Below are positions 2,394-27,382 of a stretch of DNA of 51,404 bases, piece after piece. This stretch comes from a virus. Each line of letters opens with the position of its first letter. The stretch's first letter is position 1. The notes beneath the pieces were generated by a model, which worked only from the letters and a program-made list of their open reading frames with translations, ran no database searches and had not been told where the DNA came from. The position numbers and the translations under genes were made by a program. The DNA is taken from positions 1-51,404 of IMG/VR virus record IMGVR_UViG_3300049489_000312. One strand, 5' to 3'.

Positions 2394-4310
2394 TTACTTC
2401 TTCGCCATCTGTTCCCATGCCGGTTCCAGGACGGCCACCACCTCCCGGGGAAGCTGCGTGTTCCTGTATGTCCGCAGCATCTTGACGGCTGCGCGCAGCT
2501 GGCGCGGGGTCAATTCCTCATAGCGCGCCAGGTCTTTGCCAAATTGCGAATCTCGCCCATTAAATCCACAGCCGTCTTCCGCGACCGCGCCATCGCAGCG
2601 AGATGACAATAGACGCAGCCCACGCAGCGCTGCGTCATGCACTTCCTGGGAGAACTGCGGCGCGACGGGATCGGGAGCGGCAACCTGGGCGGATGCGGCC
2701 TTGGCCGGCGCATCCGTGGCTTGGACCGTCTCATCCAGGCCCCTGGTGATCACCTCCTGTTTCGCGATGATGGTTTTGAGCAGGTGTTCGTCCAAACTCC
2801 CCTCAAACACCAGATGCTGCACCAGCACGTTGTCGCGCTGCCCGATGCGGTGGCACCGGTCCTCCGCCTGGGAGATGTTGCCCGGCACCCAATCAAGCTC
2901 CGCGAAAACGACGTGGTGGGCTGCAGTCAGGGTAATCCCCACGCCAGCCGCCATGATGCTCCCTACGAAAACCCGACACGTAGGGTCCGTCTGGAATCGC
3001 GTGACCGCCGCATCGCGGCTGACGGCGTCCATCGTGCCGTCCAACTTGACCGCGCCGAACTCAGCCAGCCCCGTCACCAAACCGGCAACCACTTCATGGT
3101 GGTGGGCCATGACGACAATTTTCCGGCTGTCGTCATCCGCCAGCGCCTGGGTTACGTGGTCAACCACGTAGGTGACTTTGGCCATGCCAATCTCCCGCCT
3201 GACGCGGGAAAACTCGGAGAAAGCCGGGAGCGCTCCCCGCTCCAGTTCCTCCTCCGCGCGGTCGGAATCCCCGCCGAAATAGCCCCACTGCTCCTCGATC
3301 AACGACGAACACCCATTGGCCGGCAGGCCAATGGTCTGCCGGGTCTTGGGAGGCAGATCCTTGAGCACGTCGGCCTTGAGCCTGCGAACCATCACGCCTG
3401 TGCGCAGGCGGGTCTGGAGTTCGTCCAAGTTGGACGCACCCGTGAATGTTGTGACGTGCCGACTCCCCGTCCAAACCTTCTGGGGGCTGCAGTACCTATA
3501 AGCAAACTTGAAGAAAGACTTGGCCTCTCCAAATGCGCCCCACTCGCTGGGCTCAATTTGCGTCAGCAGCGAGTGCAGTTCCAGCGGGCGGTTACAGATC
3601 GGAGTGCCCGTGAGGAAAACCCGGCGATCCGCCTTGATGGCAGCCAGGGCCTTGGTGCGCTGGGCCTTGCTGTTCTTGGCGTAATGGGCCTCGTCCACCA
3701 CCAGCACGTCCCACTCGGTCCCGTGGACGCAGGGCACCTTGGAGAGGATGTCGTAGTTGACGATTTCCAGAGAGTGTTTGCTGCCAGAGCGTGACGTTTG
3801 GACCTTGCCCGCCTTGATGTGTGCGGTCACGGTCCAGTCGCCGACGAGCCACCGCGCAGCTTCCCGCGCCCAATTCAGGCGCAAGCTGGCGGGGCACACC
3901 ACCAGCACCCTGAGGGGCTTCTCAGCGGCGGGGGCCAGCCCGCTGCACACTCCCAGGGCCTGGATGGTTTTTCCCAGGCCCATTTCGTCAGCGATGAGCA
4001 CTCCAACCCTGCCAGCGGAGAACCGGGCCAGGGCCAGTTGGATGCCAGCGGCCTGGAAGGGCAGGTAGGCCAGCCCTACAGGCGCCTGGGGGACCGGGAC
4101 GGCGGTGGCGGTGGTGGCAGGCGCCCCATGGATTGGGACAACCGGGGCCAGCGGGGCCGTAGCCCGGCTGGCCTCAAGGCGCGCGCGGACGACCGGGTTG
4201 CAGGCCGCGTGGACGGCTTTGGACCCCTTGGTCCATTCCACGCTGGCCCCTATTTGGATGCCCCTCCCGCAGGTGGGACAGGTTGACGCGAACCGGGCTG
4301 TGATGACCAT
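2394..4310 (-). CDS. SNF2/SMARCAL1-type DEAD-box helicase with N-terminal zinc finger
   Basis: 638 aa, ATG at 4310 with GAGGAG upstream. An N-terminal CPTC (11-14) with His34/Cys37 resembles a small zinc finger and is followed by an Ala/Pro linker. Helicase motif I is DEMGLGKT (108-115), motif II DEAH (206-209), motif III LTGTP (233-237), and motif VI QAEDRCHRIGQ (481-491), the diagnostic SNF2 signature. All motor motifs look intact. Family members are ATP-driven dsDNA translocases, and the SMARCAL1/ZRANB3-like subgroup anneals or remodels forks. First gene of the leftward unit, next to the origin-bearing initiator, so a role in early replication or recombination is likely. The C-terminal 130 residues are unassigned. 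Confidence 0.93.
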   Translation of the reverse strand: MVITARFASTCPTCGRGIQIGASVEWTKGSKAVHAACNPVVRARLEASRATAPLAPVVPIHGAPATTATAVPVPQAPVGLAYLPFQAAGIQLALARFSAGRVGVLIADEMGLGKTIQALGVCSGLAPAAEKPLRVLVVCPASLRLNWAREAARWLVGDWTVTAHIKAGKVQTSRSGSKHSLEIVNYDILSKVPCVHGTEWDVLVVDEAHYAKNSKAQRTKALAAIKADRRVFLTGTPICNRPLELHSLLTQIEPSEWGAFGEAKSFFKFAYRYCSPQKVWTGSRHVTTFTGASNLDELQTRLRTGVMVRRLKADVLKDLPPKTRQTIGLPANGCSSLIEEQWGYFGGDSDRAEEELERGALPAFSEFSRVRREIGMAKVTYVVDHVTQALADDDSRKIVVMAHHHEVVAGLVTGLAEFGAVKLDGTMDAVSRDAAVTRFQTDPTCRVFVGSIMAAGVGITLTAAHHVVFAELDWVPGNISQAEDRCHRIGQRDNVLVQHLVFEGSLDEHLLKTIIAKQEVITRGLDETVQATDAPAKAASAQVAAPDPVAPQFSQEVHDAALRGLRLLSSRCDGAVAEDGCGFNGRDSQFGKDLARYEELTPRQLRAAVKMLRTYRNTQLPREVVAVLEPAWEQMAKK

Positions 4311-4513: not shown

Positions 4514-5974
4514 GTGCCGCATACACAAGACTACATCCGCGTACCGTCCTGGCTCATTACCTATAATGGCCTGAGCGCAAGCGCCATCCGCGTGGCCCTG
4601 CTCCTGCTGGCCAGCCGCGACGAGTCTGGCTCTGCCCCAGCGCTGACGCATGCGGCGATTGCCGCGCACCTGGGCGTGAGGCGGGTGACCGTATCACGCG
4701 CAATAATTGAGTTAGTTAAATGTGGCGTCCTCGCCACTCAATACCAGGGTGCGATCAGGAAATGGGGCATCCGTGAACCCGGTGGCCGTGTATCAGAACT
4801 GATACAAAGTATCAGAACTGATACAACCTCACCTGCACGTGAGACTGTATCAGAAGTGATACAAAGTATCAAAACTGATACAACCTGCCGTGCGCGTGAG
4901 GTTGTATCAAAACTGATACAATGTATCAAAACTGATACATTCGACGATATAGAGAAAGAGAATAAAGATATTAGTAGAGAAGGAGAAGAGTACTCAGAAC
5001 TAAAAGTCAAAAACAAAAGACATGTCGAGTTGCAGGTGCAGGAATCAGAATCGCAACCTGACCCCACAGGCGCGAAAAAAGATTTCCGCCCCGAATCGCA
5101 AGAACCAGTGCCCCACGACCAGGCCCCCCCAGTTTCCGCTGCCCCCCCCAGCCAGGAACCGCCTAAAACGCACGAGGATGCCCCAGGATCGACGAACGCA
5201 TGTGAACCCATAGCGGCCATGCCATCCAAACCAAACGCGCAACCTGTGGCATCCCAGGCGCCTACAGAAGAAACGCAGGATTCTGGGTCAGCAGCGGACG
5301 TGCGGAAAGTTTTTGATGCATGGAGGAATATACTCAGCCACCCCAAGGCCAGATTGGACGACCGCAGGCGCAGAGCGATTAAGCGCGCACTATCAGATTA
5401 CGGGCTCGACGATTGTGTGCGGGCAATCCACGGCATTCGCGCGTCATCATTTCACATGGGTGATAATGCTGACGGTAAAGTGTACGATGATTTGTGCCTC
5501 ATCTTCCGCGATGCTGAACACATTGAGCGATTCATCGCGCTAAGTCCTGTACCAGAGAACCACCAGGGAGACGCTGGAAAGGCTCCTGATAATTGGGACG
5601 CAATCTGGAACGATGAGGTTGGATCATTCGAGGACGAGTTTAGCAGGTTAAGGAGTGAAAATTGCGTAAGTGCATATAGCGGAAAGTGGAAGTTTAGCAC
5701 TCCCGCTCCTGACCAGCAGGTGATTGTGCGGGGCATCCGGGTTCCGGTGTGGACAATTTCTGAGGGATGTGGTGAGGTGTTTTTCATGGCGCGAGCGGTT
5801 GCGTCGTACTCCTGGGCGTCCCAGGAACTCGACCGCCGATGGCGTGACCCAGCTGTGACGGCGGAACTCAAAGGCAGACTGGCAATGCGAGTGGATCGTC
5901 TCAATCAGGCGGTTGCAAATTACCAAGCGAGGGCGCAAGAGCGCGCTCAACAGGAGGCTGCGTATGCGGACTGA
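4514..5974 (+). CDS. Replication initiator / helicase-loader-like protein containing the origin
   Basis: 486 aa from a GTG at 4514 with GGAGA 5-6 nt upstream; an in-frame TTG at 4484 lacks a ribosome site. Residues about 20-85 form a winged helix-turn-helix (AIAAHLGVRRVTVSRAI). Residues 93-149 are three 19-aa repeats encoded by iteron DNA. A Pro/Gln/Glu-rich linker runs to about 265. The C-terminal domain (about 270-345; AWRNILSHPKARLDDRRR, then YDDLCLIFRDAEHIERFI) resembles the C-terminal module of phage replisome organisers. The layout recalls lambda O: the protein binds iterons inside its own gene and recruits the helicase encoded just downstream (overlap 11 bp). Binding to its own iterons is inference. 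Confidence 0.8.
   Translation: MPHTQDYIRVPSWLITYNGLSASAIRVALLLLASRDESGSAPALTHAAIAAHLGVRRVTVSRAIIELVKCGVLATQYQGAIRKWGIREPGGRVSELIQSIRTDTTSPARETVSEVIQSIKTDTTCRAREVVSKLIQCIKTDTFDDIEKENKDISREGEEYSELKVKNKRHVELQVQESESQPDPTGAKKDFRPESQEPVPHDQAPPVSAAPPSQEPPKTHEDAPGSTNACEPIAAMPSKPNAQPVASQAPTEETQDSGSAADVRKVFDAWRNILSHPKARLDDRRRRAIKRALSDYGLDDCVRAIHGIRASSFHMGDNADGKVYDDLCLIFRDAEHIERFIALSPVPENHQGDAGKAPDNWDAIWNDEVGSFEDEFSRLRSENCVSAYSGKWKFSTPAPDQQVIVRGIRVPVWTISEGCGEVFFMARAVASYSWASQELDRRWRDPAVTAELKGRLAMRVDRLNQAVANYQARAQERAQQEAAYAD
4790..4938 (+). repeat. Six dyad iterons in three 57-bp units (putative replication origin)
   Basis: Six copies of the 16-bp palindrome GTATCARAASTGATAC start at 4790, 4809, 4847, 4866, 4904 and 4923. 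Within a pair the spacing is 19 bp and pairs recur every 57 bp, so the period also preserves the reading frame (19 codons). The last two pairs drift from G to A in the centre. The array lies inside the initiator gene and is followed by an A/G-rich stretch. Confidence 0.85.
4939..5022 (+). other. A-rich region next to the iterons, candidate DNA unwinding element
   Basis: Directly downstream of the iteron array the plus strand becomes strongly A/G-rich and C-poor (runs such as AGAGAAAGAGAATAAAG), unlike the GC-rich surroundings. In lambda-type origins an AT-rich unwinding element sits beside the iterons in the same place. Assignment rests on position and composition only. Confidence 0.5.
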
Positions 5975-7922
5975 CGCCACACGGGATGAAATCGACAGGC
6001 TCGTCACAAACCTGCGTATCCGCAAAAAGGCGTCTGGCAACCATTTGGTTGCTGATTGCGTCTCGCCAGAGTGCCTGAAGCCGGGGCACCTGTACGTCAA
6101 CGCAGAGACAGGTCTGTGGGATTGCAAACGCTGCAACGCCAGCGGAAACGCTTTCCAATTGGCTACGCTCCTGGGCATCCGCCTGCGGGATCGTGCTCTG
6201 GTGGCGACGGCATCGGCTGTAGCAATGACCGGCGCGACCCCGCTCCCCCGCCTTCGCGAGGCCAAGGGGTTCAATCTGGCCACCGTCACCCATGCATGTG
6301 AGCGGTTGTTCATCGACGACAAGGGCAAGCCTGTTCTAGATTACCTGCATGAGCGCGGGTTTGACGACGAGACAATCTGTCGGTTCAAACTTTGTCTGAT
6401 GTTCCTCAAGGAAGGCGGGCAGACAGAGCCTGCCGTTGGCATCCCCTACGTGTCCGACGGGAAGGTCACGCTCATCAAGCAGCGGAATCTCGCCAGCACC
6501 AAAGCAGAGCGGAAGTTCCGCCGCATCCCTGTGGGTGCCCCTAGCTCGCTGTTCAACGGGGATGCGGTACGCGGCTGCACCCAGGCAGTTCTCGTTGAGG
6601 GTGAGCTTGATGCCGTTAGTTTGTATCAATTCGGCGTGACCAATGCGGCCAGCACAAGTCTGGGCGCACAGAAAAACATCCCCCAGGAGTGGGCAGAGAC
6701 TCTTGCGGCAGCTGATGACATTGTCCTCTGGTATGACGATGACGAAGTTGGCGACCAAGCCACTGCTTCGTTGATCCAACGGCTTGGATCGCACCGCTGC
6801 AGGATTGCGTCAATCCCGGTGGAAATCTCCGACCGGCTTCTGGAGAAGACAGGCAAGGCGCCCAAAGATGTGAACGACCTGCTGCGCTCCGGCCTTGTCA
6901 GCAGTGAGGAAGTGCGCGCAATCATCGCCTCTGCCAAGGGCATTGAGAACCAAGACGTTGTTCACGTCTCCAGTTTCAACGACGTCCTGGCCAATGAAAT
7001 AGACAATGCAGGAACGTCTCTCGGGATCCCTACCGGGTGGAGCAATCTGGACGCTTTCATCAAGGGCATTCGACGCCAGGAGTTGATTGTACTCACTGGA
7101 CACACCGCGCACGGCAAGACCAGTTTTGCCACTGCCCTGCTTGATCAGATTTCCAACATCCACAAAGAGCCAGTGCTCATCTCAAGCCTGGAAAACGGGC
7201 CGGTTTCAACTGCCCGGAAACTTCTCCAGCGCAAACTTGGGATGCCGTTGAGCCATATCAAGACTGAGCAGGACCGCATTGATGCCCATGAAACACTGTC
7301 AGAGACATCCGTTGCACTGACCTATGTGCTCAACCTGTACGGTCTGCAGAAGTATGATGCTATCCGTGACGCATTCGTCTACGCCAGGAAACGGCTTGGC
7401 GTTAAATACGCGGTGGTTGACCACCTGCACTTCCTGGCGAAAGACAATTCGCATCAGGATGAGCGGGAGTTTGTGGACTCTGCAGTGCTCAGGTTTGCGG
7501 CATTGACCCGCGAACTGGATATGGCAATCGTCCTGCTGGCCCACCCCAGAGGCAGTGTGGAATTGGACACGCTCCCCAATGGCGATTCGATCAAAGGGTC
7601 TTCCAGCGTGAAACAAGCAGCTGACCTTGGGCTTACGGTTTATCGGTCACTGGACCTGCATTCTGACCCGCGACCGCGCAAGGTGAACCTGAAGGACAGT
7701 AGCGGAAAAAAGATGTCCGTCATGCTTGCCCCGAATAATTCTCTCGTGTACTGCTGGAAAGCCAGGCATGACGAAGCGCGTGAAGGCGCGTGCATGTTCC
7801 GGTTTGAAGCCCGTGGACTGGACTTCAAAGAAGAGCGGATGCAAACCGACCAACCCCAAACAACCTACGGGTCACCGCGACCATTCGCAGACCCGTTTGC
7901 CTCTAGCGGAGAAGAGCAATGA
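5964..7922 (+). CDS. Primase-helicase (T7 gp4/Twinkle-like)
   Basis: 652 aa; ATG 5964 has AGGAGG 6 nt upstream and overlaps the initiator stop. An N-terminal zinc ribbon uses Cys32, Cys37, Cys54 and Cys57. The TOPRIM domain shows VEGELDA (Glu212) and WYDDDEVGD (Asp258/Asp260). A linker leads to a RecA-type hexameric helicase domain with Walker A GHTAHGKT (379-386) and Walker B-like YAVVDHLHFL. Predicted to unwind DNA at the fork while making primers. The zinc ribbon and TOPRIM glutamate are present, so primase activity is plausible. Its place after an iteron-binding initiator fits loading at the internal origin. Confidence 0.93.
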   Translation: MRTDATRDEIDRLVTNLRIRKKASGNHLVADCVSPECLKPGHLYVNAETGLWDCKRCNASGNAFQLATLLGIRLRDRALVATASAVAMTGATPLPRLREAKGFNLATVTHACERLFIDDKGKPVLDYLHERGFDDETICRFKLCLMFLKEGGQTEPAVGIPYVSDGKVTLIKQRNLASTKAERKFRRIPVGAPSSLFNGDAVRGCTQAVLVEGELDAVSLYQFGVTNAASTSLGAQKNIPQEWAETLAAADDIVLWYDDDEVGDQATASLIQRLGSHRCRIASIPVEISDRLLEKTGKAPKDVNDLLRSGLVSSEEVRAIIASAKGIENQDVVHVSSFNDVLANEIDNAGTSLGIPTGWSNLDAFIKGIRRQELIVLTGHTAHGKTSFATALLDQISNIHKEPVLISSLENGPVSTARKLLQRKLGMPLSHIKTEQDRIDAHETLSETSVALTYVLNLYGLQKYDAIRDAFVYARKRLGVKYAVVDHLHFLAKDNSHQDEREFVDSAVLRFAALTRELDMAIVLLAHPRGSVELDTLPNGDSIKGSSSVKQAADLGLTVYRSLDLHSDPRPRKVNLKDSSGKKMSVMLAPNNSLVYCWKARHDEAREGACMFRFEARGLDFKEERMQTDQPQTTYGSPRPFADPFASSGEEQ

Positions 7923-14284: not shown

Positions 14285-14803
14285 ATGGGCCGCTCAAATA
14301 CCTATACCCCGCAGCGCGTTGAGTTGATTCTTTCGGGAGTCAAACTCGGCCTCCCGCTCACCAATATCGCAGCGTTCGCAGGCGTGAATGCAAAGAGCTT
14401 CTACGGGTGGCGGTCCCGGTGCCTGCAGCACTTTGAAGAAAACCGTACAACAAAACAGGCTGCCATTGGGGAGAGACTACATAAGGCAGAGGCCGACCGG
14501 ATTGCAGCTTCACTCCTGCGTATTGCCAGGGCAGGCGAGGGTGGGCAGGTCATTGAAAACGTGGTCAAGACCACGACGGCACCTGACGGAACGCAGACCA
14601 CGGAAACCAGGCAGAAGGTGACAGCCCCCGACTGGAAGGCGGATGCGTGGTTTCTAGAGCACGCTCCGTCCACCAAGCAAGCCTATTCCGCCCAGCAGCG
14701 GACAGAGCTAACCGGCGCAGCTGGTGGGCCGGTCAAGCTCAATTGGTTGGAGTTGATGTCCAGGGCGGAAGAGCAGGCTAAAAAGGACGACTCCAATGGA
14801 TGA
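14285..14803 (+). CDS. Terminase small subunit
   Basis: 172 aa. N-terminal helix-turn-helix (YTPQRVELILSGVKLGLPLT, then AAFAGVNAKSFYGW) is the form used by many phage small terminases to recognise DNA. The middle is helical (RLHKAEADRIAASLLRIA), and the C-terminus (WFLEHAPSTKQAYSAQQRTE) fits the oligomer/TerL-contact region. Position directly before the methyltransferase-TerL pair supports the call. Weak ribosome site (AGGG). Confidence 0.82.
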   Translation: MGRSNTYTPQRVELILSGVKLGLPLTNIAAFAGVNAKSFYGWRSRCLQHFEENRTTKQAAIGERLHKAEADRIAASLLRIARAGEGGQVIENVVKTTTAPDGTQTTETRQKVTAPDWKADAWFLEHAPSTKQAYSAQQRTELTGAAGGPVKLNWLELMSRAEEQAKKDDSNG

Positions 14804-16232
14804 CCTCAATCACATCAATGAATCGTTGCGGTCCTTGGCCAGGCCGGTTGAGTTTTTCAAACTCGATCCCAACAACGCCAGGCTTCACTCGCCAGCCAAC
14901 ATTTCAACGATTGCTGCGAGCCTAAAGAGGTTTGGCCAACAGAAGCCTATAGTTGCGCTTGAGGACGGGACTGTTGTGGCCGGCAACGGAACGCTCACGG
15001 CAGCCATGCACAACCTTGGATGGAAACACATCGCTGCAGTCACGTTCCAAGACCGTGCAGCGGCCAAGCAATTTGCTCTGGCAGATAATCGAAGCGCAGA
15101 ACTCGCAATATGGAATGAGGCAGAACTCGCCAAGCAACTTATCGGGTTTGCTGATGCCAAGATTGACATGGCAGACATTGGCTTTGACACCAAGTCCATC
15201 GCGTACCTAATACGCGACAAGGAGCACAAGTCTCTGCTTGGCGTGGAACAGAAACAGGCAACCGTTGACATCAAGAAGAACGAGAACATTGCTCCTGGCT
15301 CGTTCCGCGTTATTCACGGTGACTCTGCAGATGAGTTGCGCAAGATCGACCACAACAGCATTGACGCGATTGTATGTGACCCGCCGTATGAGATTGGATT
15401 TCATGGGTCCAAGTGGGACTCGTCTGGCATCGCGTTCAATGTCGATATGTGGAAGAGCGCACTGTGTGCGCTGAAGCCAGGAGGACATGTCCTCGCATTC
15501 GGTGCGACAAAAACTTATCACAGGCTTGCAACGGCTCTTGAGGATGCAGGATTTGTTATCGTTGATTGCATTGCGTGGATGTACTCGTCAGGTATGCCGC
15601 ACGGAAAAACAATATCCGGTGGGTTCGGCACGCAGTTAAAGCCGTGTTACGAGCCATGCGTTGTTGCGATAAAACCGCGAGATGGGACCGTTGAGTCAAA
15701 TATGCACGAGCACGGTGTCGGAGTGTTCTTTGTCGACAGGTCGCGCATCCAATACTCTCATGATGAGGCGGAATCAGTTCTTAACCGTGTCAGCAAACCA
15801 AGCAGGCCGACCATAGTTAAGACGTCGACTGGTCCAGCAAATCCACCACACCAACTAGGTCGATGGCCTGGCAATGTTTTGCTGGACGAGCACGCGGCTA
15901 TGGAGTTGGCCGCGTCAACGGGCGAAGCATCCTCGCGGTTCTTTTTTGTCTCTAAGCCAAGCCAGAATGAAAAAGATGCCGGCATGCCAGTTGGGGCAGA
16001 AAACACGCACCTCACTGTGAAGCCAGTTGACCTAATGCGCTATCTTGTAAGGCTGGTCTGCCCGGTCGGCGGGACAATCTTGGACCCGTTTGCTGGGTCT
16101 GGGTCTACTGGATGCGCAGCAATCTGTGAAGGCATGAACTTTGTAGGTATCGAGCTTGATCAGAAGCATGCATCCATTGCGGAAAAGCGCATTGAGTGGT
16201 GGCGCAACAAGGCTCTGCAGCAAGATGAATGA
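14796..16232 (+). CDS. ParB/Srx-like domain fused to a DNA methyltransferase
   Basis: 478 aa. Residues about 15-110 match the ParB/sulfiredoxin-like N-terminal domain (NARLHSPANISTIAASLKRF, VVAGNGTLTAA). The C-terminal part is an adenine-N6 or cytosine-N4 methyltransferase: catalytic DPPY about residue 193, then the cofactor motif DPFAGSGSTG near residue 430, i.e. motif IV before motif I. It overlaps TerS by 8 bp and TerL by 8 bp, so it is co-translated with packaging proteins. It could protect phage DNA from restriction; a packaging-linked mark is speculative. Catalytic motifs look intact. Confidence 0.92.
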   Translation: MDDLNHINESLRSLARPVEFFKLDPNNARLHSPANISTIAASLKRFGQQKPIVALEDGTVVAGNGTLTAAMHNLGWKHIAAVTFQDRAAAKQFALADNRSAELAIWNEAELAKQLIGFADAKIDMADIGFDTKSIAYLIRDKEHKSLLGVEQKQATVDIKKNENIAPGSFRVIHGDSADELRKIDHNSIDAIVCDPPYEIGFHGSKWDSSGIAFNVDMWKSALCALKPGGHVLAFGATKTYHRLATALEDAGFVIVDCIAWMYSSGMPHGKTISGGFGTQLKPCYEPCVVAIKPRDGTVESNMHEHGVGVFFVDRSRIQYSHDEAESVLNRVSKPSRPTIVKTSTGPANPPHQLGRWPGNVLLDEHAAMELAASTGEASSRFFFVSKPSQNEKDAGMPVGAENTHLTVKPVDLMRYLVRLVCPVGGTILDPFAGSGSTGCAAICEGMNFVGIELDQKHASIAEKRIEWWRNKALQQDE

Positions 16233-17682
16233 GCTTGCGTTCATCCGCAGGTATCAGCGCAAGCCTGCTCTGTTCGTGCGGGAGGTTCTTGGCCAGAACC
16301 TGACCGATATCCAAGAGCAGATTATCAACTCACTGGTTGACTACTCAGAGGTTGCGGTCAAATCCAGCCACGGGCAGGGCAAGTCATTCATCTCAGCCTG
16401 TGCGGCTCTCTGGTTCCTGTGCTGCCACAAACCATCCAAAGTGGTGACCACCGCCCCAGGTGGCCGGCAGGTGGAAGGCATTGTCTGGGCTGAGATTGCT
16501 CGGCTCCACCGGGATGCGCTGGTTGAACTCCCAGGGATTGTCCTGACCAAGCAGTTGAAGATTGACGCGGATTGGTACGCCTGGGGTTTCACTGCACCGG
16601 AATACAACCCGGACAAGTTCGTCGGGTTCCACTCCCCGCACATGCTGGTGATTGCGGACGAGGCTTCCGGCATTAGCGATCACATTTTTGACGCCATCCT
16701 GTCCGTGCTCACGGGCGAGCACACGCGGCTATTGATGATCGGCAACCCGACCAACCCAAGCGGGAGATTCGCAGGAGCATTCCGCAAGCCTTCTCAGTCT
16801 TCCAAGCGCTTCACAATATCGGCGTTCGAGAACCCCAACCTTGCGCAGTTCGGCATCACGCTAGAGGATATCCGCGAGGACCGATGGAAGGCCAAACTCA
16901 AAGGGCCGCTCCCATGGCCACAGGGCCTGGTGGATGCGTCCTGGGTTCGTAGAGCATGGGAGCGGTGGGGCGAGCAAAGCCCGCTGTTCCAGGCCCGCGT
17001 CATGGCGCAGTTCCCCAGCGTATCCGATGACGCGCTTGTTCCGATCAGTTGGGTTGAGTTGGCCAACCAGCGTTGGGACGCAGCTGTCTGGAGCGGGGTG
17101 GCGACGATGGGCCTGGACGTTGCGCGGCTAGGTCCAGATGCCACAGTTGGAGCCATCTCCTACCGGCAGGGCATCCGCGAGCTAATTCGATTCCGCAAGG
17201 CGTCCACCATGGAGACAGCGGGGATGGCTATCGAGGCTATCCGCTCACGTCCCCAGGTACGGGAAGTGCGGGTTGACGCGGATGGGCTAGGTGCCGGCGT
17301 CTACGACGCTCTTGTTGAGACGCTGGGAGACAAGGTTATCGAGATGCGCGGAGGATTCGCCTCCCGTGACTCAGACAGATTCTTTAACCGGAGGAGTGAA
17401 TGGATATGGACACTGAGGGAACAGTTGGACCCAGCGAGCGAGAACCCGATTGCACTTCCACGGGACGACCGGCTGACGGCGCAGCTGACAACGATCAAGT
17501 GGTCCACGACGCGCAAGGGCCAGATACAGGTGGAGCCAAAGGACGAGTTGAGAAAGCGGCTAGGGGAAAGCCCCGACGAACTGGACGCTTGCGCCTACGC
17601 GGTAGCAAAGCAGGAGGGCGAGGCAGCCACGATAGCCTTGGATCCCGACGTTGGAAGGAGCGACAATCAATGGGCATTGTGA
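16225..17682 (+). CDS. Terminase large subunit
   Basis: 485 aa from ATG 16225; the earlier in-frame start at 16156 lies inside the methyltransferase without a ribosome site. ATPase: Walker A SSHGQGKS (47-54), Walker B LVIADEA (141-147). RNase H-like nuclease: GLDVAR (Asp298), VDADGLG (Asp351/Asp353) and SPDELDA near the C-terminus (Asp451/Asp454). It pumps DNA into the prohead and cuts the concatemer. With circular permutation in the assembly, headful packaging is plausible but unproven. Confidence 0.95.
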   Translation: MNELAFIRRYQRKPALFVREVLGQNLTDIQEQIINSLVDYSEVAVKSSHGQGKSFISACAALWFLCCHKPSKVVTTAPGGRQVEGIVWAEIARLHRDALVELPGIVLTKQLKIDADWYAWGFTAPEYNPDKFVGFHSPHMLVIADEASGISDHIFDAILSVLTGEHTRLLMIGNPTNPSGRFAGAFRKPSQSSKRFTISAFENPNLAQFGITLEDIREDRWKAKLKGPLPWPQGLVDASWVRRAWERWGEQSPLFQARVMAQFPSVSDDALVPISWVELANQRWDAAVWSGVATMGLDVARLGPDATVGAISYRQGIRELIRFRKASTMETAGMAIEAIRSRPQVREVRVDADGLGAGVYDALVETLGDKVIEMRGGFASRDSDRFFNRRSEWIWTLREQLDPASENPIALPRDDRLTAQLTTIKWSTTRKGQIQVEPKDELRKRLGESPDELDACAYAVAKQEGEAATIALDPDVGRSDNQWAL

Positions 17683-20068: not shown

Positions 20069-20916
20069 AGCAGGCTTGGGCCAGGACACGCGCCAGGGAC
20101 CGTTCGCATTGGGTGTTTCTGGTCCGGGGATATAAGGCATGGGTTGCCCGGTGCCAGGAGGCTCTTGCCGCGCTGTCCGGTCCTGACCATGTGCAACTCC
20201 AGGCGATTCGTGACTTCGACATGGTCCCCCATGCGGAGGATTTCCTTGCCGGGTGGGCCACGATGGTCACCCGCCTGATGCGGGCTACCGTCAACGCCAA
20301 GCCAATCCGCGTCCGCAAGGAAGCACCGCTAGAGGACATCGACCCTGAGTCAATTGATTTCCCGCGCTCCCACAGGCTCGCCATGAATTGGCTGGAGGAG
20401 TCTGGCCTGCGTCTAGTGCGGAGCATCAGCCGTGAGAACAAGGACGTTATCTCCAGCATCCTGTCACGGGCCATTGAGGAAGGTTGGGACATCCGCAGAA
20501 TGAAGCGGGCTATCAAGCAGCACGTTGGCCTGCATGCCCGCTATTCCAGAGCCGTGACCAATTACGAACGGAAGCTAGACAGCCAGGGTCTTCCTGGGGA
20601 CCGCATCGACCGAATGGTGGAGCGCTACCGGGCCAAGCTCATCAGTGCTCGGGCAGAGGCTATTGCCAGAACGGAGACGATCACCGCACGCAACGTGGGG
20701 CATCTGGCCAACTGGCAAACCATGCAATCAGAAGGCGACCTCCCGACGATTGCCCAGAAAGTTTGGATCGCTGCGCCAAACACCGCGTGCCAGGTGTGCC
20801 TCAATCTGATGGGACAGCAACCACGGAGTTTGTCGGCCACCTGGGAGACGCCCATGGGTATCGTCAGGCATCCACCAGCCCATCCCAACTGTCGCTGCTC
20901 AATTGGATTGGTGTAG
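20056..20916 (+). CDS. MuF-like head morphogenesis protein
   Basis: 286 aa overlapping the portal gene. The C-terminal half carries the MuF/SPP1 gp7 signature: ARTETITARNVG, CQVCLNLMGQ and HPPAHPNCRCS. These proteins ride in the head in low copy and contact the portal; some are ejected with DNA. No toxin domain is appended here. Confidence 0.88.
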   Translation: MLSLEQAWARTRARDRSHWVFLVRGYKAWVARCQEALAALSGPDHVQLQAIRDFDMVPHAEDFLAGWATMVTRLMRATVNAKPIRVRKEAPLEDIDPESIDFPRSHRLAMNWLEESGLRLVRSISRENKDVISSILSRAIEEGWDIRRMKRAIKQHVGLHARYSRAVTNYERKLDSQGLPGDRIDRMVERYRAKLISARAEAIARTETITARNVGHLANWQTMQSEGDLPTIAQKVWIAAPNTACQVCLNLMGQQPRSLSATWETPMGIVRHPPAHPNCRCSIGLV

Positions 20917-20925
20917 TTTCGAGCT

Positions 20926-21561
20926 ATGCCATTCCCCAGCGAACACGCAGCCCGTCAGGTTGACCCGTCAAAGTTTGGACGGTTTTCCCGCAAGCCCGTC
21001 GAGGGCACCACGGGGATCGACTTCGTCTATGGCGTCTCCGACGACGGAAAGGCGGTTGTTCAGTCTGTGCGGTTTGATTCCAGCGGGTGGACACCGGCAG
21101 AGGCAAAGGAGTGGTTGAGTGACCACGGCTTTGCGGTTTCCGGGTTTGAGCCAGCGATTGAAAAAGCGTTCACGGTAGAGATTGCCAAGGTTGTGCCCGA
21201 TCAACATCTAGTATTCGGTTGGCTGTACGTAAGCAAGACGGCTAACGGTGAACAGGTGGTTGACCATTCGGGAGACACAATCGCAATCGATGAGTTGGAG
21301 CGTGCTGCTTATGGCTACATGCTCAACTCCAGAACTGCTGGGGACATGCACCAGCGTGTCGGCGTAGGCCGGGCTGTGTCGTCAATGGTTTTTACGCCGG
21401 AGGTAAAGGCTGCGTTGGGAATCCCTGAAGGCTTGGTTCCCGATGGCTGGTGGATTGGATTCAAGATTGATGACACCACCACTTGGGAACGAATCAAAAG
21501 CGGTGAGTTGAAGATGTTTTCAATTGGCGGGAAGGCCATCCGTTCTTCCCTTGGAGGTTGA
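20926..21561 (+). CDS. XkdF-like prohead protease
   Basis: 211 aa. From about residue 68 the sequence AFTVEIAKVVPDQHLVFGW, then HSGDTIAIDELERAAYGYML and MFSIGGKA matches the XkdF family of putative prohead proteases. The N-terminal 60 residues (DPSKFGRFSRKPVEGTTGID, EAKEWLSDHGF) form a small extra domain seen in related phages. Presumably matures the scaffold and capsid. Confidence 0.78.
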   Translation: MPFPSEHAARQVDPSKFGRFSRKPVEGTTGIDFVYGVSDDGKAVVQSVRFDSSGWTPAEAKEWLSDHGFAVSGFEPAIEKAFTVEIAKVVPDQHLVFGWLYVSKTANGEQVVDHSGDTIAIDELERAAYGYMLNSRTAGDMHQRVGVGRAVSSMVFTPEVKAALGIPEGLVPDGWWIGFKIDDTTTWERIKSGELKMFSIGGKAIRSSLGG

Positions 21562-21563
21562 GA

Positions 21564-22622
21564 ATGCCAGAGGCAACGCATAGTTTGACGCAACTCACGA
21601 TTGAGGAGGGCAGTTTGGTGGACAAGGGCGACAACCCAGGCGCGGAAATCAAGCTCGTCAAGCGTGACGATGCTGGCCCGTTCCTGCGTTTGTGGAAATG
21701 GGCACGCGGGCTGGTCGCCAAGAATGACTCCATGCCCCGCACCACCGGGCAGGTGCTTGCCCAGAACGACTTCGAGGCAGAGTTTGGAAAGCTCAAGTTC
21801 GCATTCATGGACGCGGTCTATTCCATCCTTGAGGCGCCACCTTCTGAAGCCACTGCCACCATGCTCCGTCAGTCAGTGGACGAGTTCGCAGCCAAGGCCA
21901 AAGCCTTGTTTGGCGGGATTCATCCTCAGCTGTCTGAGATTACCGATTCAATGCATTGTGCTCTTGAGGATGTTGCAGCCGTAGAAAAGCGAGTTGATTT
22001 TGTGCGCGCTGTTCATGCTCTTGATGCGCTGGCGTATCCGGGCCAAGTGCCCGTCACCACCGGCAAGGCGCCGGAAGAGGTAGCGATGTCAAAGTCTGTT
22101 GAGGATGTGCTCAAGTCTCTGCCGGAAGCAGACCGCGCGTTGGTGCAGGCTGCCATGGCTCCCAAGGCTGACGACGTGGAAAAGGCTGCAAAGGCCGCTC
22201 AGGAAGTTGCGGACCTGGCCAAGCGCTTGACTGATACCCAGGCGGAATTGGCCAAGATGCGCGATGAGCGCATGGCTGCTGAGTTCCAGAAGCGCGCGGA
22301 AGCCCTGAAGGTGCCTGGCCAGGACGTGGCGCATGTGGCGGAAGTTCTGAAGCGCGCCCACGCTGCTGACCCTGCTTTGTGCGACACCATCGAGCAAGTG
22401 CTCAAGGCTGCCGCTGCTCAGGCAGAGGCCAGTGGTAAGGTGCTGTTCAAGAGCATCGGCACTCGCGGGACCGATGGTGGAACCGCTGAGAGCAAGATTG
22501 CGTCTCTTGCCAGCGAACTGCAGAAGGCCAACCCCAAGTTGTCCAAGCAGCAGGCTGTGAGCGAAGTGCTCAAGGCCAACCCTGCTCTCTATCAACAGTC
22601 CCTCGCGGAAGCGGGGCAGTGA
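21564..22622 (+). CDS. Scaffold-like protein (352 aa)
   Basis: ATG 21564 with GGAGG 6 nt upstream. Follows the protease and precedes cement and capsid genes, the standard place of scaffolding. The N-terminus (VDKGDNPGAEIKLVKRDD) resembles proteins paired with XkdF. The C-terminal half is a long Ala/Lys/Glu coiled coil (AAKAAQEVADLAKRLTDTQA). Expected to template the shell and then be cleaved. Confidence 0.72.
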   Translation: MPEATHSLTQLTIEEGSLVDKGDNPGAEIKLVKRDDAGPFLRLWKWARGLVAKNDSMPRTTGQVLAQNDFEAEFGKLKFAFMDAVYSILEAPPSEATATMLRQSVDEFAAKAKALFGGIHPQLSEITDSMHCALEDVAAVEKRVDFVRAVHALDALAYPGQVPVTTGKAPEEVAMSKSVEDVLKSLPEADRALVQAAMAPKADDVEKAAKAAQEVADLAKRLTDTQAELAKMRDERMAAEFQKRAEALKVPGQDVAHVAEVLKRAHAADPALCDTIEQVLKAAAAQAEASGKVLFKSIGTRGTDGGTAESKIASLASELQKANPKLSKQQAVSEVLKANPALYQQSLAEAGQ

Positions 22623-22648
22623 ACCGGACTCCCCGGTCGAGGTGAATC

Positions 22649-23023
22649 ATGGCTGCTTTTGAGAACCCGATTGGCGTGACCAGCTTTGAGTCGAATGTTG
22701 ACGCGAGCGCCACGCCCTTCCGTTGTGTGAAGTTGTCCAGTGGCAAGGTCGTGTATGCCGGCGTTGCCGACGTGGCCATTGGCCTGCTGCAGAACAAGCC
22801 TGCGGTGGGCGCTACTGCTACTGTGCTGTTCTCTGGCATTTCCCGTGGCGTGGCGAGCGCTCCGATTCTGGAGAACGCCAAGGTGGCCCCGGCTGCCAAC
22901 GGCACCATCCGCACGGCGGTGAGCGGCGACACGCCCATCGGCATTGCGCTGGTTGCTGCTGCAGGCGCGAACGAAATCATCCCCGTTCTGGTTGGCCCGC
23001 TCGGGGGCACCCCGCTGCCGTGA
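22649..23023 (+). CDS. Capsid cement/decoration protein (DUF2190-like)
   Basis: 124 aa, ATG 22649 with GAGGTG upstream. Small all-beta protein with KVVYAGVADVAIGLLQNKPA, SGISRGVA and TPIGIALVAAAGANEIIPVL, typical of capsid-cement proteins encoded just before the major capsid. Related to the N-terminal domain of the 283-aa protein at 24406. Confidence 0.75.
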   Translation: MAAFENPIGVTSFESNVDASATPFRCVKLSSGKVVYAGVADVAIGLLQNKPAVGATATVLFSGISRGVASAPILENAKVAPAANGTIRTAVSGDTPIGIALVAAAGANEIIPVLVGPLGGTPLP

Positions 23024-23052
23024 TGCGCGGCAGTTCAACCCAAACGCGCATC
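23022..23052 (+). promoter_or_regulatory. Hairpin in the leader of the major capsid gene
   Basis: GATGCGCG (23022-23029), a 15-nt loop, CGCGCATC (23045-23052): a perfect 8-bp inverted repeat starting at the cement gene's stop and ending 4 nt before AGGAG of the capsid gene. No T tract follows, so mRNA stabilisation or translation control is likelier than termination. Confidence 0.45.
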
Positions 23053-23070
23053 GAGCGCAGGAGTTAATCA

Positions 23071-24039
23071 ATGCCCAGTCTTCCTACTTCTGGTGATGTT
23101 CACGTCAACCGACCGCTCACCAACATTGCCATCGCGTATATGCAGCAGGAGTCTGCGTTTATCGCTGGCAAGGTGTTTCCGGCGGTTCCGGTTGCCAAGC
23201 AGAGTGATTCCTATTTCATCTGGGACAAGGGTGACTTTGCCCGTGACGATGCCCGCGAGCGCGGTCCTGGCTCCCTGGCGCCGGTGGGTGCGGTCAAACT
23301 CTCGACCGACAGCTACAACGCCAAGGTCTTTGCTTACGCCAAACTGATCAGCGACCAAGAGCGCGCCAATCAGGATGACCCGCTCAACCTCGATAAGACC
23401 GCTGCCGAAGTGGTTGCTCAAAAGCTGCTTATCCGTCGGGAAAAGCAGTGGGTGAGCAAGTGCTTTGTCACTGGCGTGTGGGGCACCGATTTGGTTGGCG
23501 GTGTCGATTTCACCGTCTGGTCAAACTACGTCGCCTCTGACCCCGTCAACGACATCCGCCAGCGCATCTTCCAGCTGTGCAAGACCCCTGGCATCATGCC
23601 CAAGGATCTGAAGCTGGTGCTCGGGCCGGAAGTCTTCCAGAAGCTGCTTGACCATCCCAAGTTCTTGGAGCGGTACGAGCAGACCCAGGCTGCCATCCTC
23701 AACGAGCAGCTGATTGCCGCTGTGCTGGGTATCGGTGAAGTGCTGGTGCCGATGGCCACGAATAACACCGCCGCAGAGGGTGCGGCGGATTCGTTCGGTT
23801 ACATTCACGGCAAGAACGCTCTTCTGGTGCATGCGGCTCCGTCGCCTGCCATCAACGTGCCGTCGGGCGGGTATCACTTTACGTGGACCGGCCTCGTTGG
23901 TGCGGACGGAATGGGCATGCGCGTGAAGCGCTACCGCCGGGAAGAGTACGCGGCTGATCAGGTGGAGGGTGAGACTGCGTTTGATCCCAAGGTTGTGTCC
24001 CCCGCCCTGGGCGTGTTCTTCAGCGGCGCGGTTGCCTGA
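23071..24039 (+). CDS. Major capsid protein
   Basis: 322 aa, ATG 23071 with AGGAG upstream. Recognisable capsid family: RPLTNIAIAYMQQESAFIAG, KVFPAVPVAKQSDSYFIWDK, STDSYNAKVFAYAKLISDQE and REKQWVSKCFVTGVWGTD. Presumably HK97 fold, forming the icosahedral shell. Ends 18 bp before a strong terminator, consistent with high expression. Confidence 0.92.
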   Translation: MPSLPTSGDVHVNRPLTNIAIAYMQQESAFIAGKVFPAVPVAKQSDSYFIWDKGDFARDDARERGPGSLAPVGAVKLSTDSYNAKVFAYAKLISDQERANQDDPLNLDKTAAEVVAQKLLIRREKQWVSKCFVTGVWGTDLVGGVDFTVWSNYVASDPVNDIRQRIFQLCKTPGIMPKDLKLVLGPEVFQKLLDHPKFLERYEQTQAAILNEQLIAAVLGIGEVLVPMATNNTAAEGAADSFGYIHGKNALLVHAAPSPAINVPSGGYHFTWTGLVGADGMGMRVKRYRREEYAADQVEGETAFDPKVVSPALGVFFSGAVA

Positions 24040-24057
24040 GCAGTAGTTGTTGCGATG

Positions 24058-24104
24058 CGGGCTGGGTGTCGGCGTTCCCCTCCGATACCCAGCCCGTATT
24101 TTTT
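24058..24104 (+). terminator. Rho-independent terminator after the major capsid gene
   Basis: 15-bp stem (CGGGCTGGGTGTCGG pairs with CCGATACCCAGCCCG, one G-U), 9-nt loop, then TATTTTTT. The strongest terminator seen in the window. It probably trims read-through so capsid mRNA exceeds downstream messages. Confidence 0.92.
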
Positions 24105-24115
24105 AGGAGGAACGC

Positions 24116-24409
24116 ATGCACCGGAGAGCGACAATCAAAGAGCGTAGGCAGATGCCAGGAACTCTGGACGGCGTAACGCTCACCGCAGTTTACGCAATCC
24201 CGACTCCTGCTGGGACGATTGCCCCCGGCGAGGATGTCACGCGCATCGCAGCGACGTGGCCAAACCTCCCGATGTTTATCAAGCGTGGGTACATCAAGGC
24301 CAATCCTCCGGTGGATTGGGCCAGGCTCGCCGCGCATCTCAAGGATGGCCCCAAGCAGAAGCCTGCAGACAAGGCTCCTGAGAAGTCGGCCAAGAAGGTG
24401 AAGCCGTGA
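24116..24409 (+). CDS. Hypothetical head protein (97 aa)
   Basis: ATG 24116 with AGGAGG 5 nt upstream, directly after the terminator. Beta-like N-terminal half (LDGVTLTAVYAIPTPAGTIA), then a DWARLAAHL helix and a very Lys/Pro-rich tail (KQKPADKAPEKSAKKVK). No family recognised. The basic tail could contact DNA or an acidic partner in the head. Confidence 0.75.
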   Translation: MHRRATIKERRQMPGTLDGVTLTAVYAIPTPAGTIAPGEDVTRIAATWPNLPMFIKRGYIKANPPVDWARLAAHLKDGPKQKPADKAPEKSAKKVKP

Positions 24410-25257
24410 GCCGCGAGCAAGCAACGTCCATCGACGTCAATTCCGCAGCGACCCTGGAGGCATACCGGGCAGTCCGTCGGGATGGCTCCGGCAACCTCGT
24501 CTATGCCATTGCAGGGGAGGTTGCGATTGGCATCCTGCAGAACTCCCCCACGGTCGGGAAGTCTGGTCGTGTGCTGATTGACGGCATCTCGTCCGTGCAG
24601 TTGTCAGGGACCACCAAGGCGGGAGACTTCCTTTCCCCGGATGCTTTGGGAAAGCTCCGTGTTGCTCAGAACGGTGACGACATCGTCTGCCAAGCCCGCG
24701 AGGCAGGGGTTGCCAACGCGGTCATCCAGGCGGATGTCAATGTCGCTGGCACCTATGGGAACGTAGCCGGTGGGTCGGTTACGGGGTCTGGCGTTGCCAC
24801 GGAGCTTGCGGTTTGGAGCGGCCTGTCCTCGCTCACATCAATCCCCAACGGAACAGGAGCGCTCACCAATGACGGGTCAGGCAACTACACCTGGGAGTCT
24901 GCTGGTACGCCTACTGGCACGTATACTGTTCCTGGCACCGTTGCTGTTGGCGACGTTGTTGCGTCCACGGGGTCGGGCACGGCGGACAAAGCCGATGCGG
25001 ACAACCCAGCGGCGCGCCCGGCCATCGGAATTGTAGTCAGCAAGCCAACGGCTACGAGTGCGGTAGTCCAGTACGTTGGGGAGGTCAGTGGCCTGTCTGG
25101 CCTGAGCGCTGGTTCGGCGTACTTCCTTGACGTTACCGCAGGGGCCATGACGACGACGGCTCCCGCGTCACCGGCCATTTTCCAGAAGATTGGCTTTGCC
25201 AAGACCGCAACTGTGTTTGTTGCTCAATTCACCCCGGACTTTATCGTCCAGACGTGA
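24406..25257 (+). CDS. Decoration-like protein with DUF2190-type N-terminus (283 aa)
   Basis: GTG 24406 overlaps the previous stop (GTGA). The N-terminus (NLVYAIAGEVAIGILQNSPT, VLIDGISS) parallels the cement protein at 22649 (KVVYAGVADVAIGLLQNKPA). After a Gly/Thr/Ser linker a second beta domain of similar type follows (AVGDVVASTGSGTADKADAD, AAVQYVGEVSGLSGL-like). Probably decorates the head; two knob domains in one chain. Confidence 0.7.
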   Translation: MSREQATSIDVNSAATLEAYRAVRRDGSGNLVYAIAGEVAIGILQNSPTVGKSGRVLIDGISSVQLSGTTKAGDFLSPDALGKLRVAQNGDDIVCQAREAGVANAVIQADVNVAGTYGNVAGGSVTGSGVATELAVWSGLSSLTSIPNGTGALTNDGSGNYTWESAGTPTGTYTVPGTVAVGDVVASTGSGTADKADADNPAARPAIGIVVSKPTATSAVVQYVGEVSGLSGLSAGSAYFLDVTAGAMTTTAPASPAIFQKIGFAKTATVFVAQFTPDFIVQT

Positions 25258-25264
25258 GGAACCC

Positions 25265-25489
25265 ATGGCACGATTCCGTTACCTTGGAGAGCCTGAGCGG
25301 GCATCGGTTGTTGCGTATGGCCCGACGACGGTGATCCGTTATCGCAAGAAGGACGGCACCACTGTTTCGCTGAGTCCTGTTTCGCCTGCGACTGAGTTCG
25401 CGGTTGGGCAGGACATTGGCTACGACATCGACGACGACCGCGCGGTGAGGATGCTTTCTGCAGACTCTCGCTTTGCCCTCATCCCCTGA
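25265..25489 (+). CDS. Hypothetical structural protein (74 aa)
   Basis: ATG 25265 with GAGGA upstream. Small, beta-rich, acidic in the centre (GQDIGYDIDDDRAVRML). No motif recognised. Lies between two decoration-like genes with short spacers, so likely a minor head component. Confidence 0.7.
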   Translation: MARFRYLGEPERASVVAYGPTTVIRYRKKDGTTVSLSPVSPATEFAVGQDIGYDIDDDRAVRMLSADSRFALIP

Positions 25490-25501
25490 TAGGAGACTCC
25501 A

Positions 25502-27073
25502 ATGGCAGACCGTAAAGCTCTAGTCCTCAATGGCAACGCTCAGTCTCAGGTTCCCAACGCTGACAACCTTGTCGTCGGAGCAGGCATCACGACGGCAACG
25601 GGCAACCTGACGATCAACTCTAACGGCGGAACGGTGAACCTCGCCAGTTCTGCCAATCTGACTGCCGTTGGTGGCACCAGTGCGGTTGACCTGTCGGCTG
25701 CGTCTGGTCTGTTCAAGACCACGACCGGGGCTGTGACCATCGGCCCCGGCGCGGTGACGGTTAGCGGCGCGGCGACGTTCACGGCAGCTGGCTCTGCGGT
25801 CACGGTGAACAACGACGCGGTTGTCACCGGAGCCACCTACGCCAATGGCGGTGTGGATCGTTCCACTGCAGCTGCTCTGAGCATCGGCACCACGAATGCC
25901 AGTGCCGTCAATATTTCCAAGATTGGCGCCCTGACGACCATCAAGGGCAACCTGCAGGTGGACGGGACGGAGACGGTTGTTGGCACGTCCACGTTCCAAG
26001 ACAGCGCTACGTTTGAGGGCAACGTCACGTTCGGCAATGCCGCGACGGACACGGTTGCCTTCATCTCCCGCGTTGGCCCGTCGGGAAACCAAGACATCCA
26101 CTTTGTGAAGGAACTGGCTCACGTCATTGACGTGGATGCGTCCACCACGGCTGCAACCGCTGGTGGCGCTCTGACCATGCGTTCCGGCAACGGCAACGGC
26201 GCGGCTGGCGGTGCGTTGACCCTGGACACCGGGTCGGGTTCTGCCGGCGGTGCGTTGTCGATTGGTGCCACCAATGCGGCTTCCGTCGGGATCGGTCGCA
26301 GCGGCATCACCACGACGGTCACGGGCGGTCTGAGCCAGACCACGGGCGCACTGAACCTGACGGCGAATGCTGCGTCCGTCGTGAGCACGTCATCCGGCGC
26401 GTTGAATCTGGACGGCGCTGCTGGTGTGAACATCAAGGGCAGCGCTACCACGGCACTCGCCATCAACTCGGCGGGCACTGCCGTCACCGTCCAGGCCGGT
26501 GCGGTCCTCGGAACCATGGGCAGCGGCAACATCAACCTGCCCAACAACGGGTCCGCTCGGTTCCAAGTTGAGGGGTCTGCGGTTGGCTCAACGGTCACGG
26601 CTGCCAACCTTGACACCCTGACCAACGGGTCCAACGCGGATTCGCTGCACGTTCACGCAGCTGGTGCGGCAACTAATATCTCGCTCACTGGAACTTCTGG
26701 CGAGGCGATTGACGCTGGTGAGCTTGTTGCCATTGCCAACTCGGGTGGCAACCCCAGGCTCTTTCGCGCGGACGCAGCCAACGGGACTGCTGCGCGGGCC
26801 ACGGTTATCGGCGCGTCTGGGTCCACGGTGGGCGCATCGGGCAGCTCGGTCACCGTCTACGTGGCGGGTGAGCGGTCCATCCCTGACGCCCAATGGGACG
26901 CGGTCCCTGCAGCGGCGGATGTTGGGTCGCCTGCGTTTATGTCTGCCACGGTTGGCAACTGGACGCTGACGGCTCCGACCAGCGGCACCTACCAGCAGTG
27001 TGGCATTGTGACGCAGGGCGGGACCGGGGCTGTGAAGGTCGCACTTGGCGTGCAGTCTCGCATTGCGTTGTGA
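25502..27073 (+). CDS. Repetitive beta-rich head-fibre/decoration protein (523 aa)
   Basis: Very rich in Gly, Ala, Ser, Thr, Asn and Val, poor in Lys, no Cys until one near the C-terminus. Short repeating strands (LTINSNGGTVNLASSANLTA; GGALTMRSGNG, GGALTLDTGSG, GGALSIGATN) suggest a beta-solenoid or trimeric fibre. The C-terminal 130 residues (AGELVAIANSGGNPRLFRAD, VYVAGERSIPDAQW) form a compact knob of the decoration type. Function as a surface fibre is inferred from composition and position. Confidence 0.72.
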   Translation: MADRKALVLNGNAQSQVPNADNLVVGAGITTATGNLTINSNGGTVNLASSANLTAVGGTSAVDLSAASGLFKTTTGAVTIGPGAVTVSGAATFTAAGSAVTVNNDAVVTGATYANGGVDRSTAAALSIGTTNASAVNISKIGALTTIKGNLQVDGTETVVGTSTFQDSATFEGNVTFGNAATDTVAFISRVGPSGNQDIHFVKELAHVIDVDASTTAATAGGALTMRSGNGNGAAGGALTLDTGSGSAGGALSIGATNAASVGIGRSGITTTVTGGLSQTTGALNLTANAASVVSTSSGALNLDGAAGVNIKGSATTALAINSAGTAVTVQAGAVLGTMGSGNINLPNNGSARFQVEGSAVGSTVTAANLDTLTNGSNADSLHVHAAGAATNISLTGTSGEAIDAGELVAIANSGGNPRLFRADAANGTAARATVIGASGSTVGASGSSVTVYVAGERSIPDAQWDAVPAAADVGSPAFMSATVGNWTLTAPTSGTYQQCGIVTQGGTGAVKVALGVQSRIAL

Positions 27074-27109
27074 TAAGCCCTGCCGGCCATAACGGCCAAG
27101 GGGAAACCA

Positions 27110-27379: not shown

Positions 27380-27382
27380 CCC

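Follow-up and report, generated by a model that had tools for sequence, protein, structure and literature searches.

The region from position 4790 to about 5024 of the window very probably serves as the virus's own replication origin, placed inside the gene of its replication initiator. To judge from the sequence, winged-helix dimers of the initiator would bind six dyads in this region, once assembled, the complex would put strain on the A-rich duplex (4924-5024), and the initiator's C-terminal domain would recruit the helicase, whose gene comes next. A lambda-like origin is of a known kind; the new parts are a word shared by many initiator genes, a layout of 19 and 57 bp, and a limit that stop codons place on such layouts.

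The window is the full IMG/VR virus record IMGVR_UViG_3300049489_000312, 51,404 bp in length. In an end-to-end comparison its positions 1-196 and 51209-51404 are identical at 195 of 196 places, which suggests a circularly assembled, near-complete genome. PHROG matches in the window include terminase, portal, major head, tape-measure, endolysin, SSB, a Sak4-like annealing protein and an exonuclease. A DNA methyltransferase fused to a ParB-like domain is encoded at 14796-16229, adjoining the terminase genes. The features that concern the origin are as follows.

2394-4310, minus strand: SNF2-type helicase, divergent from the initiator gene (phrog_62, E 1.3e-91)
4514..5974, plus strand: replication initiator gene, 486 aa (GTG start picked by eye after GGAG; reading frame open from 4484)
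4568..4771, plus strand: N-terminal winged helix (Pfam HTH_Crp_2, E 1.5e-8, residues 26-76; AF2 model)
4790..4805, plus strand: iteron 1, GTATCAGAACTGATAC, read GTA TCA GAA CTG ATA C
4809..4824, plus strand: iteron 2, GTATCAGAACTGATAC, read aGT ATC AGA ACT GAT AC
4828..4843, plus strand: third lattice slot of unit 1, CTCACCTGCACGTGAG, a different dyad, 7 of 8 pairs
4847..4862, plus strand: iteron 3, GTATCAGAAGTGATAC, exact match
4866..4881, plus strand: iteron 4, GTATCAAAACTGATAC, exact match
4885..4900, plus strand: third lattice slot of unit 2, CTGCCGTGCGCGTGAG, a weaker dyad in register, 5 of 8 pairs
4904..4919, plus strand: iteron 5, GTATCAAAACTGATAC, exact match
4923..4938, plus strand: iteron 6, GTATCAAAACTGATAC, exact match
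4924..5024, plus strand: candidate DNA unwinding element, A-rich on this strand, overlapping iteron 6 (duplex stability)
5015..5617, plus strand: C-terminal replication-initiation domain (phrog_16167, E 6.8e-15, residues 168-368)
5964..7922, plus strand: primase-helicase with Toprim and DnaB C-terminal domains (PF03796, E 2.4e-22; PF13155, E 5e-10; phrog_239, E 1.4e-67)
14285-17679: terminase genes

The dyad array and its A-rich flank

Six exact matches to GTATCANNNNTGATAC (GTATCA-N4-TGATAC) lie between 4790 and 4938, with starts at 4790, 4809, 4847, 4866, 4904 and 4923. The steps between them are 19, 38, 19, 38 and 19 bp, that is, three pairs at 19 bp with a period of 57 bp. A sequence-only reading had described six near-identical 16-bp palindromes of this spacing within the coding frame, and the exact matches and their coordinates confirm it. 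Each 16-mer is an imperfect palindrome in which the 6-bp arms are fully complementary and the 4-bp centre varies, giving 6 or 7 of 8 pairs. No further copy with up to two mismatches is found elsewhere in the 51,404-bp record; the chance expectation for such dyads is 0.81, and six are reached in none of 100 shuffles.

The 57-bp units occupy 4789-4845, 4846-4902 and 4903-4959, the second and third being 86% and 67% identical to the first. All six dyads are in frame within the initiator reading frame, where the units encode the repeats VSELIQSIRTDTT, VSEVIQSIKTDTT and VSKLIQCIKTDTF, each of 19 residues. The array starts 276 bp into the gene, between the winged helix and the O-like C-terminal domain.

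Every unit has a third slot on the 19-bp lattice. In unit 1 this slot holds a dyad that sits exactly on the pitch, bears no resemblance to TATCA by eye and has no in-frame stop; in unit 3 (4942-4957) only 3 of 8 pairs form and there is no dyad. Among the 51,223 16-mers outside the array, 0.06% score as high as the slot of unit 1 and 2.9% as high as that of unit 2. Since units 1 and 2 are duplicates, their third-slot dyads are not independent.

The duplex next to the array is the weakest in the genome. Of the 51,354 possible starts of a 50-bp window, the one at 4924, inside iteron 6, gives the lowest stability (4924-4973, rank 0), and 4975-5024 comes next among non-overlapping windows; the least stable 80- and 100-bp windows also fall at this flank. 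The composition of 4939-5025 is 45 A, 15 T, 19 G and 8 C, so that the A-rich stretch noticed earlier after the array is borne out by base counts as well as by stability.

The initiator protein

In addition to the matches given above, the initiator matches phrog_345, 'replication initiation O-like', over residues 83-319 (E 4.3e-13), a span that takes in the array-coded linker. For the N-terminal domain Pfam lists HTH_Crp_2, HTH_36 and others. PF04492 (Phage_rep_O) gives no Pfam match up to E 1, a range in which HMMER filters drop many weak matches, and PF06970 (RepA_N) is not among the Pfam matches up to the same value. The AF2 model of residues 1-145, built from a 16-sequence alignment, has a modest mean pLDDT of 69.7, with ten-residue blocks at 68-96 over residues 11-80. 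It consists of helices at 22-33, 46-53 and 57-69 and strands at 73-78 and 81-86. AF2 gives low confidence for the array-coded linker, as expected if it is flexible; such a linker would leave the DNA free to be selected as binding sites while it stays open to translation.

A Foldseek comparison of the model with the PDB gives no match at E 0.001 or better, the best being E 0.014. The first eight matches (E 0.014-0.044) include 4pql, 4pt7, 4pta and 5kbj, which we take to be N-terminal domains of pSK41-type (RepA_N) plasmid initiators, beside MarR, NsrR and TubR structures. Among predicted viral structures, 21 match at E 0.001, several of them named as helix-turn-helix or phage replication initiator proteins. 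A sequence search of solved structures with the N-terminal domain gives six weak matches (best E 0.0041).

Phage records hold no close relative of the whole protein at E 1e-5 and no relative of its N-terminal domain even at E 10, and none was confirmed in IMG/VR. With an E cutoff of 10 the C-terminal part finds matches in 25 phage records, the best at 4e-4, and the whole protein matches three plasmids, one of them from Legionella. The primase-helicase gene starts (5964) before the initiator gene ends (5974), so the two overlap. Peptide patterns find no kin of the primase-helicase in IMG/VR, while distant matches to it occur in 1,242 phage records.

Comparison with known intragenic origins

As in origins of the lambda type, tandem dyads lie in the coding sequence of the initiator and an AT-rich element adjoins them. 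The lambda gene after O is P, a helicase loader rather than a helicase. In lambda the dyads are likewise in the middle of the gene, after the DNA-binding domain; the annotated iterons occupy nt 349-433 of O. Unlike the window, however, lambda uses the word TCCCT-N7-AGGGA (as given by a de novo dyad finder) at steps of 20, 24 and 23, its four iterons are spread over all three frames without a stop, and the N-terminal domain of O is PF04492. Excerpts of two papers describe the lambda iterons as dyads bound by O dimers (PMC7466680, PMC6022878). In one of them the mid-gene iterons of lambda and Stx phage O are imperfect inverted repeats with an AT-rich flank, and their number varies, some Stx phage variants having six, and two extra iterons make O longer by 13 residues (excerpted text of PMC7466680).

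P22 is similar to the window. Its gene 18 encodes an O-like initiator with four dyads in the annotated origin interval, and its gene 12, annotated as a DnaB-like helicase, overlaps the end of gene 18 as the helicase gene does here. The word, TTTAC-N7-GTAAA, the steps of 20, 24 and 23 and the PF04492 domain of gp18 differ. pSK41, a RepA_N plasmid, also has its origin in the initiator gene, and initiators of such plasmids make up half of the top eight PDB fold matches, all weak; the RepA_N domain (PF06970) is unmatched in the window initiator. PMC5703833 states that the origin of pSK41 lies inside rep, that the winged-helix N-terminal domain binds central Rep boxes, and that the linker encoded there is dispensable. 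An origin inside repA, on the lambda pattern, is deemed likely for mycobacteriophage RepA in PMC7157519.

Phage replication modules are reportedly reviewed by Weigel and Seitz. The de novo dyad finder was applied to 21 initiator genes with 20 shuffles per gene; 17 of these, all except those of the window, L054, L117 and L148, had not been chosen for having an array. It recovers three of lambda's four iterons and, in P22, four dyads from the first base of the origin interval. A clear dyad cluster is present in seven of the 17 genes, those of lambda, P22, 234P9, Edmundo, CBP1, Jimmer1 and ST11phi8.2; in the last five its place in the gene is roughly the same, and every phage has a word of its own. 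The other ten have no clear cluster by this finder; among them PBR31 and Prairie have two close dyads, and D478 and 24E30.2 have direct repeats. The array score of L117 is reached by one of 20 shuffles.

Relatives that keep the protein and lack the repeats, named in the sequence-only reading as a check on the origin, give a mixed answer: four of the six phage relatives of the C-terminal domain have mid-gene repeats, though of other kinds, and two (VvAW1 and Carin1) have no array. Two Vibrio phage relatives (L013:2430-2500 and L011:2419-2488) carry mid-gene direct repeats in place of dyads, at steps of 21 bp (24E30.2) and 10 bp (D478). Of two plasmid-borne relatives of this domain, one has mid-gene inverted repeats and the other short direct repeats, and TATCA is the best word of the finder in neither.

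The proposal of a lambda-like origin is supported by the place of the array between the winged helix and the O-like domain, by its absence elsewhere in the record, by the constraint on its DNA, by the genome's weakest duplex, by the neighbouring helicase gene, by the corresponding positions in lambda O and P22 gene 18, and by the association of the word with initiators described below. Against it stand the N-terminal domain without a Phage_rep_O match, the modest AF2 model and its weak PDB matches, the two relatives without an array, and the ten genes without a clear cluster.

The TATCA-N4-TGATA word in other sequences

The window belongs to what we define here as the TATCA-N4-TGATA intragenic iteron group, in which the array follows the winged helix of an initiator. 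IMG/VR was scanned for two such dyads whose starts are no more than 42 bp from each other. At least 120 stretches have them, and together with L151 they make up the 121 loci analysed. A reading frame of at least 150 aa runs over the array in at least 69 loci, and at least 40 initiator-like frames, in at least 20 clusters, contain one; initiator calls are our own judgement, and clustering is by shared 4-residue words. Among the matches listed, 81 of the 121 loci were set aside as not initiators, having no long reading frame over the array or having it in structural, collagen-like or other genes. L052/L088 was also not counted, its array being at the very start of a replisome-organizer-like protein. 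The earlier view that palindromic, paired iterons are distinctive does not hold, since the lambda iterons are dyads too and the word occurs in at least 20 clusters of initiator-like frames.

In these clusters the arrays sit after the winged helix and write IKxDT and VSxLI in the linker. Among the matches listed, 18 of 20 clusters have PHROG matches (E 0.01 or better) to families for helicase loading or replication initiation, weak ones in the case of L039, L063 and L125, and the profiles may partly reflect the repeat-coded linker. L071 and L075 are the two of the 20 representatives with no such match. The N-terminal domain is PF04492 in five of the clusters listed (L053, L082, L117, L139 and L144) and HTH_36 in L044, L054 and L058; the word is therefore common across N-domain families. 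The window shares the word and the place after the winged helix with these initiators, but N-domains and steps differ: the 20 representatives have steps of 18, 21-24, 27, 33-35, 39, 41, 44 and 47 and, among the matches listed, none of 19 or 38. One 19-bp step, with another word, is found in Klebsiella phage ST11phi8.2.

Three dyads in a row occur in 25 IMG/VR stretches, 16 of them in initiator-like frames, one in a collagen-like gene and eight in no reading frame of at least 100 aa. The 16 include L109, whose 5' end is cut so that the winged helix is out of view, and which resembles L039. When the word is scrambled so as to keep its base composition but not its dinucleotides, seven stretches match, none in an initiator.

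The collagen-like gene of L066:1-1500, with GVSIKGDT repeats, has many TATCA-N4-TGATA dyads in its coding repeats and is a false friend when one searches with this word. In L075:3617-4150, minus strand, a short winged-helix-like frame with a TATCA array has phrog_15768, of unknown function, as its sole match. This family is likewise matched by the C-terminal half of the L144 protein with PF04492 (L144:751-2034, minus strand), and the L075 frame is perhaps part of an initiator that has gone unrecognised.

The strict paired pattern has no match in IMG/VR. A looser 19-bp pair has one, L007, and two stretches of that record (9,907 bases; 20400-30391) show no evident initiator among the reading frames listed. 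In genome_contigs there are 17 matches from archaea and bacteria, each with one exact 19-bp TATCA-N4-TGATA pair. By eye, the pair lies beside or over the start of an ATPase-like gene (MLFDPRPK...) in 12 of the 17 contigs (L015-L021, L026-L028, L030 and L031), reading frames being listed for L016 and L020 only. Such pairs have the look of operators by which an unrelated protein would regulate its own gene. As single pairs, 12 of 17 at these gene starts, the contig matches were not counted as kin of the window initiator.

Coding frame and the 19-bp lattice

The word TATCA-N4-TGATA can be read as xTA TCA NNN NTG ATA (VSxLI) or as xxT ATC ANN NNT GAT A (IKxDT), while the third frame, TAT CAN NNN TGA, is closed by a stop. 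A pitch of 19 bp advances the frame by one base per step, so with TGA in one frame a full site is barred from every third slot. The shortest period that returns to frame is 57 bp, or 3 x 19, and the sites of the window sit exactly so. The sequence-only reading had pointed out that the period is a multiple of three and that the array, in writing three 19-residue repeats, couples two constraints; this was right, and the closed frame makes it sharper.

Among the matches listed for the 20 cluster representatives, 54 of 65 exact sites are in the IKxDT frame, 11 in the VSxLI frame and none in the closed one. The zero is forced because the reading frames are open, and only sites that are otherwise good are informative there. 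Three such sites are altered at the would-be stop: the fourth P22 dyad has GTCAA for GTAAA, the Jimmer1 site at nt 455 has GAAAC for GTAAC, and the L053 site at nt 438 has CGATA for TGATA. Dyads in open frames have mismatches as well, two in P22 with one each and two in Jimmer1, so decay of dyads is not confined to the closed frame.

From these observations the array would have started as an unbroken 19-bp lattice, in which the pitch and the closed frame would allow only two consensus sites in a row and hence pairs every 57 bp. Stated more widely, the code would set the layout of intragenic origins: a word bearing a stop is limited to two frames for its consensus sites, sites in the closed frame are left empty, replaced or point-altered, and TATCA-N4-TGATA moreover serves several kinds of winged helix. 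We put this forward tentatively, with confidence somewhat short of even.

A different account keeps the origin and gives stop codons no role, the pairs being either an intrinsic binding unit, in which two dimers cooperate across 19 bp, or the outcome of simply duplicating a 57-bp unit; we see the chances of its being right or wrong as balanced. The dyads of L007, which have the same word and steps of 19, 26, 19, 24 and 21, lie in no recognised initiator frame, and close pairs therefore need not stem from coding. In L148 a two-dyad unit is repeated (steps 34, 44 and 34), so that simple in-frame duplication is enough to make pairs. The empty third slot of unit 3 and the mismatched open-frame dyads of P22 and Jimmer1 are also in its favour. 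This account leaves aside, however, that 57 is exactly 3 x 19, that unit 1 has a lattice-centred dyad in its third slot and unit 2 a weak dyad in the same slot, and that near-consensus sites of the closed frame are changed at the stop triplet in three other phages, P22, Jimmer1 and L053. Because unit 3 has no third-slot dyad and open-frame dyads are mismatched, a stop-codon origin of the pairs is rated somewhat below even odds. The open-access papers searched in PMC yielded no account of stop-codon limits on iteron spacing, of the 19/57 layout or of the TATCA-N4-TGATA word.

Selection on the DNA and other possible functions for the array

If the dyads were operators, the initiator or another winged-helix protein would repress or pause transcription within the gene and replication would start elsewhere. 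The pairs at ATPase-like gene starts in 12 of the 17 contigs, by eye, suggest that the word can serve other proteins. However, the array is 276 bp inside the gene, has no further copy (up to two mismatches) in the window and adjoins the weakest duplex, and we regard operators as improbable.

It is very unlikely that selection acted on a 19-residue linker repeat and the DNA repeats merely came with it, even though three in-frame repeats are present and the collagen-like gene of L066 writes the same word. In 20,000 random synonymous recodings of the array, no more than three sites ever have 11 of 12 arm bases right, whereas six are observed; since none of the recodings exceeds three, the DNA of the array is itself under selection. 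Codon choice was scored, for the given peptide, against the usage of 27 other reading frames. The 54 codons of the array give z = -7.84; none of the 9,748 overlapping windows of that length used for comparison is as low (minimum -7.33). The low value alone is not specific to the dyads, for the adjoining A-rich segments of 18 codons, at -5.38 and -5.37, are similarly low to the 18-codon segments inside the array, which range from -2.98 to -5.21. The low confidence with which the linker is modelled, and the dispensable linker of pSK41 in the excerpt of PMC5703833, also argue against selection for the protein repeat.

Even though arrayed dyads can serve as partition sites and a ParB-like domain is fused to the methyltransferase encoded at 14796-16229, a centromere-like or packaging-recognition array in place of an origin is hardly credible, since no ParA or integrase is matched among the 26 distinct window proteins profile-scanned, a subset of the genes, and the terminase genes are a long way from the initiator gene that holds the array.

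Implications

Reading the array as the origin, the TATCA-N4-TGATA word is easily searched for and would mark the likely origin in many uncultured phages. Where an origin doubles as coding sequence, the stop-bearing frame may explain, in a simple and checkable way, how its binding sites are spaced. Should the third-slot dyad prove to be a functional alternative site free of stops, one initiator would read two DNA words, translation forbidding the first.
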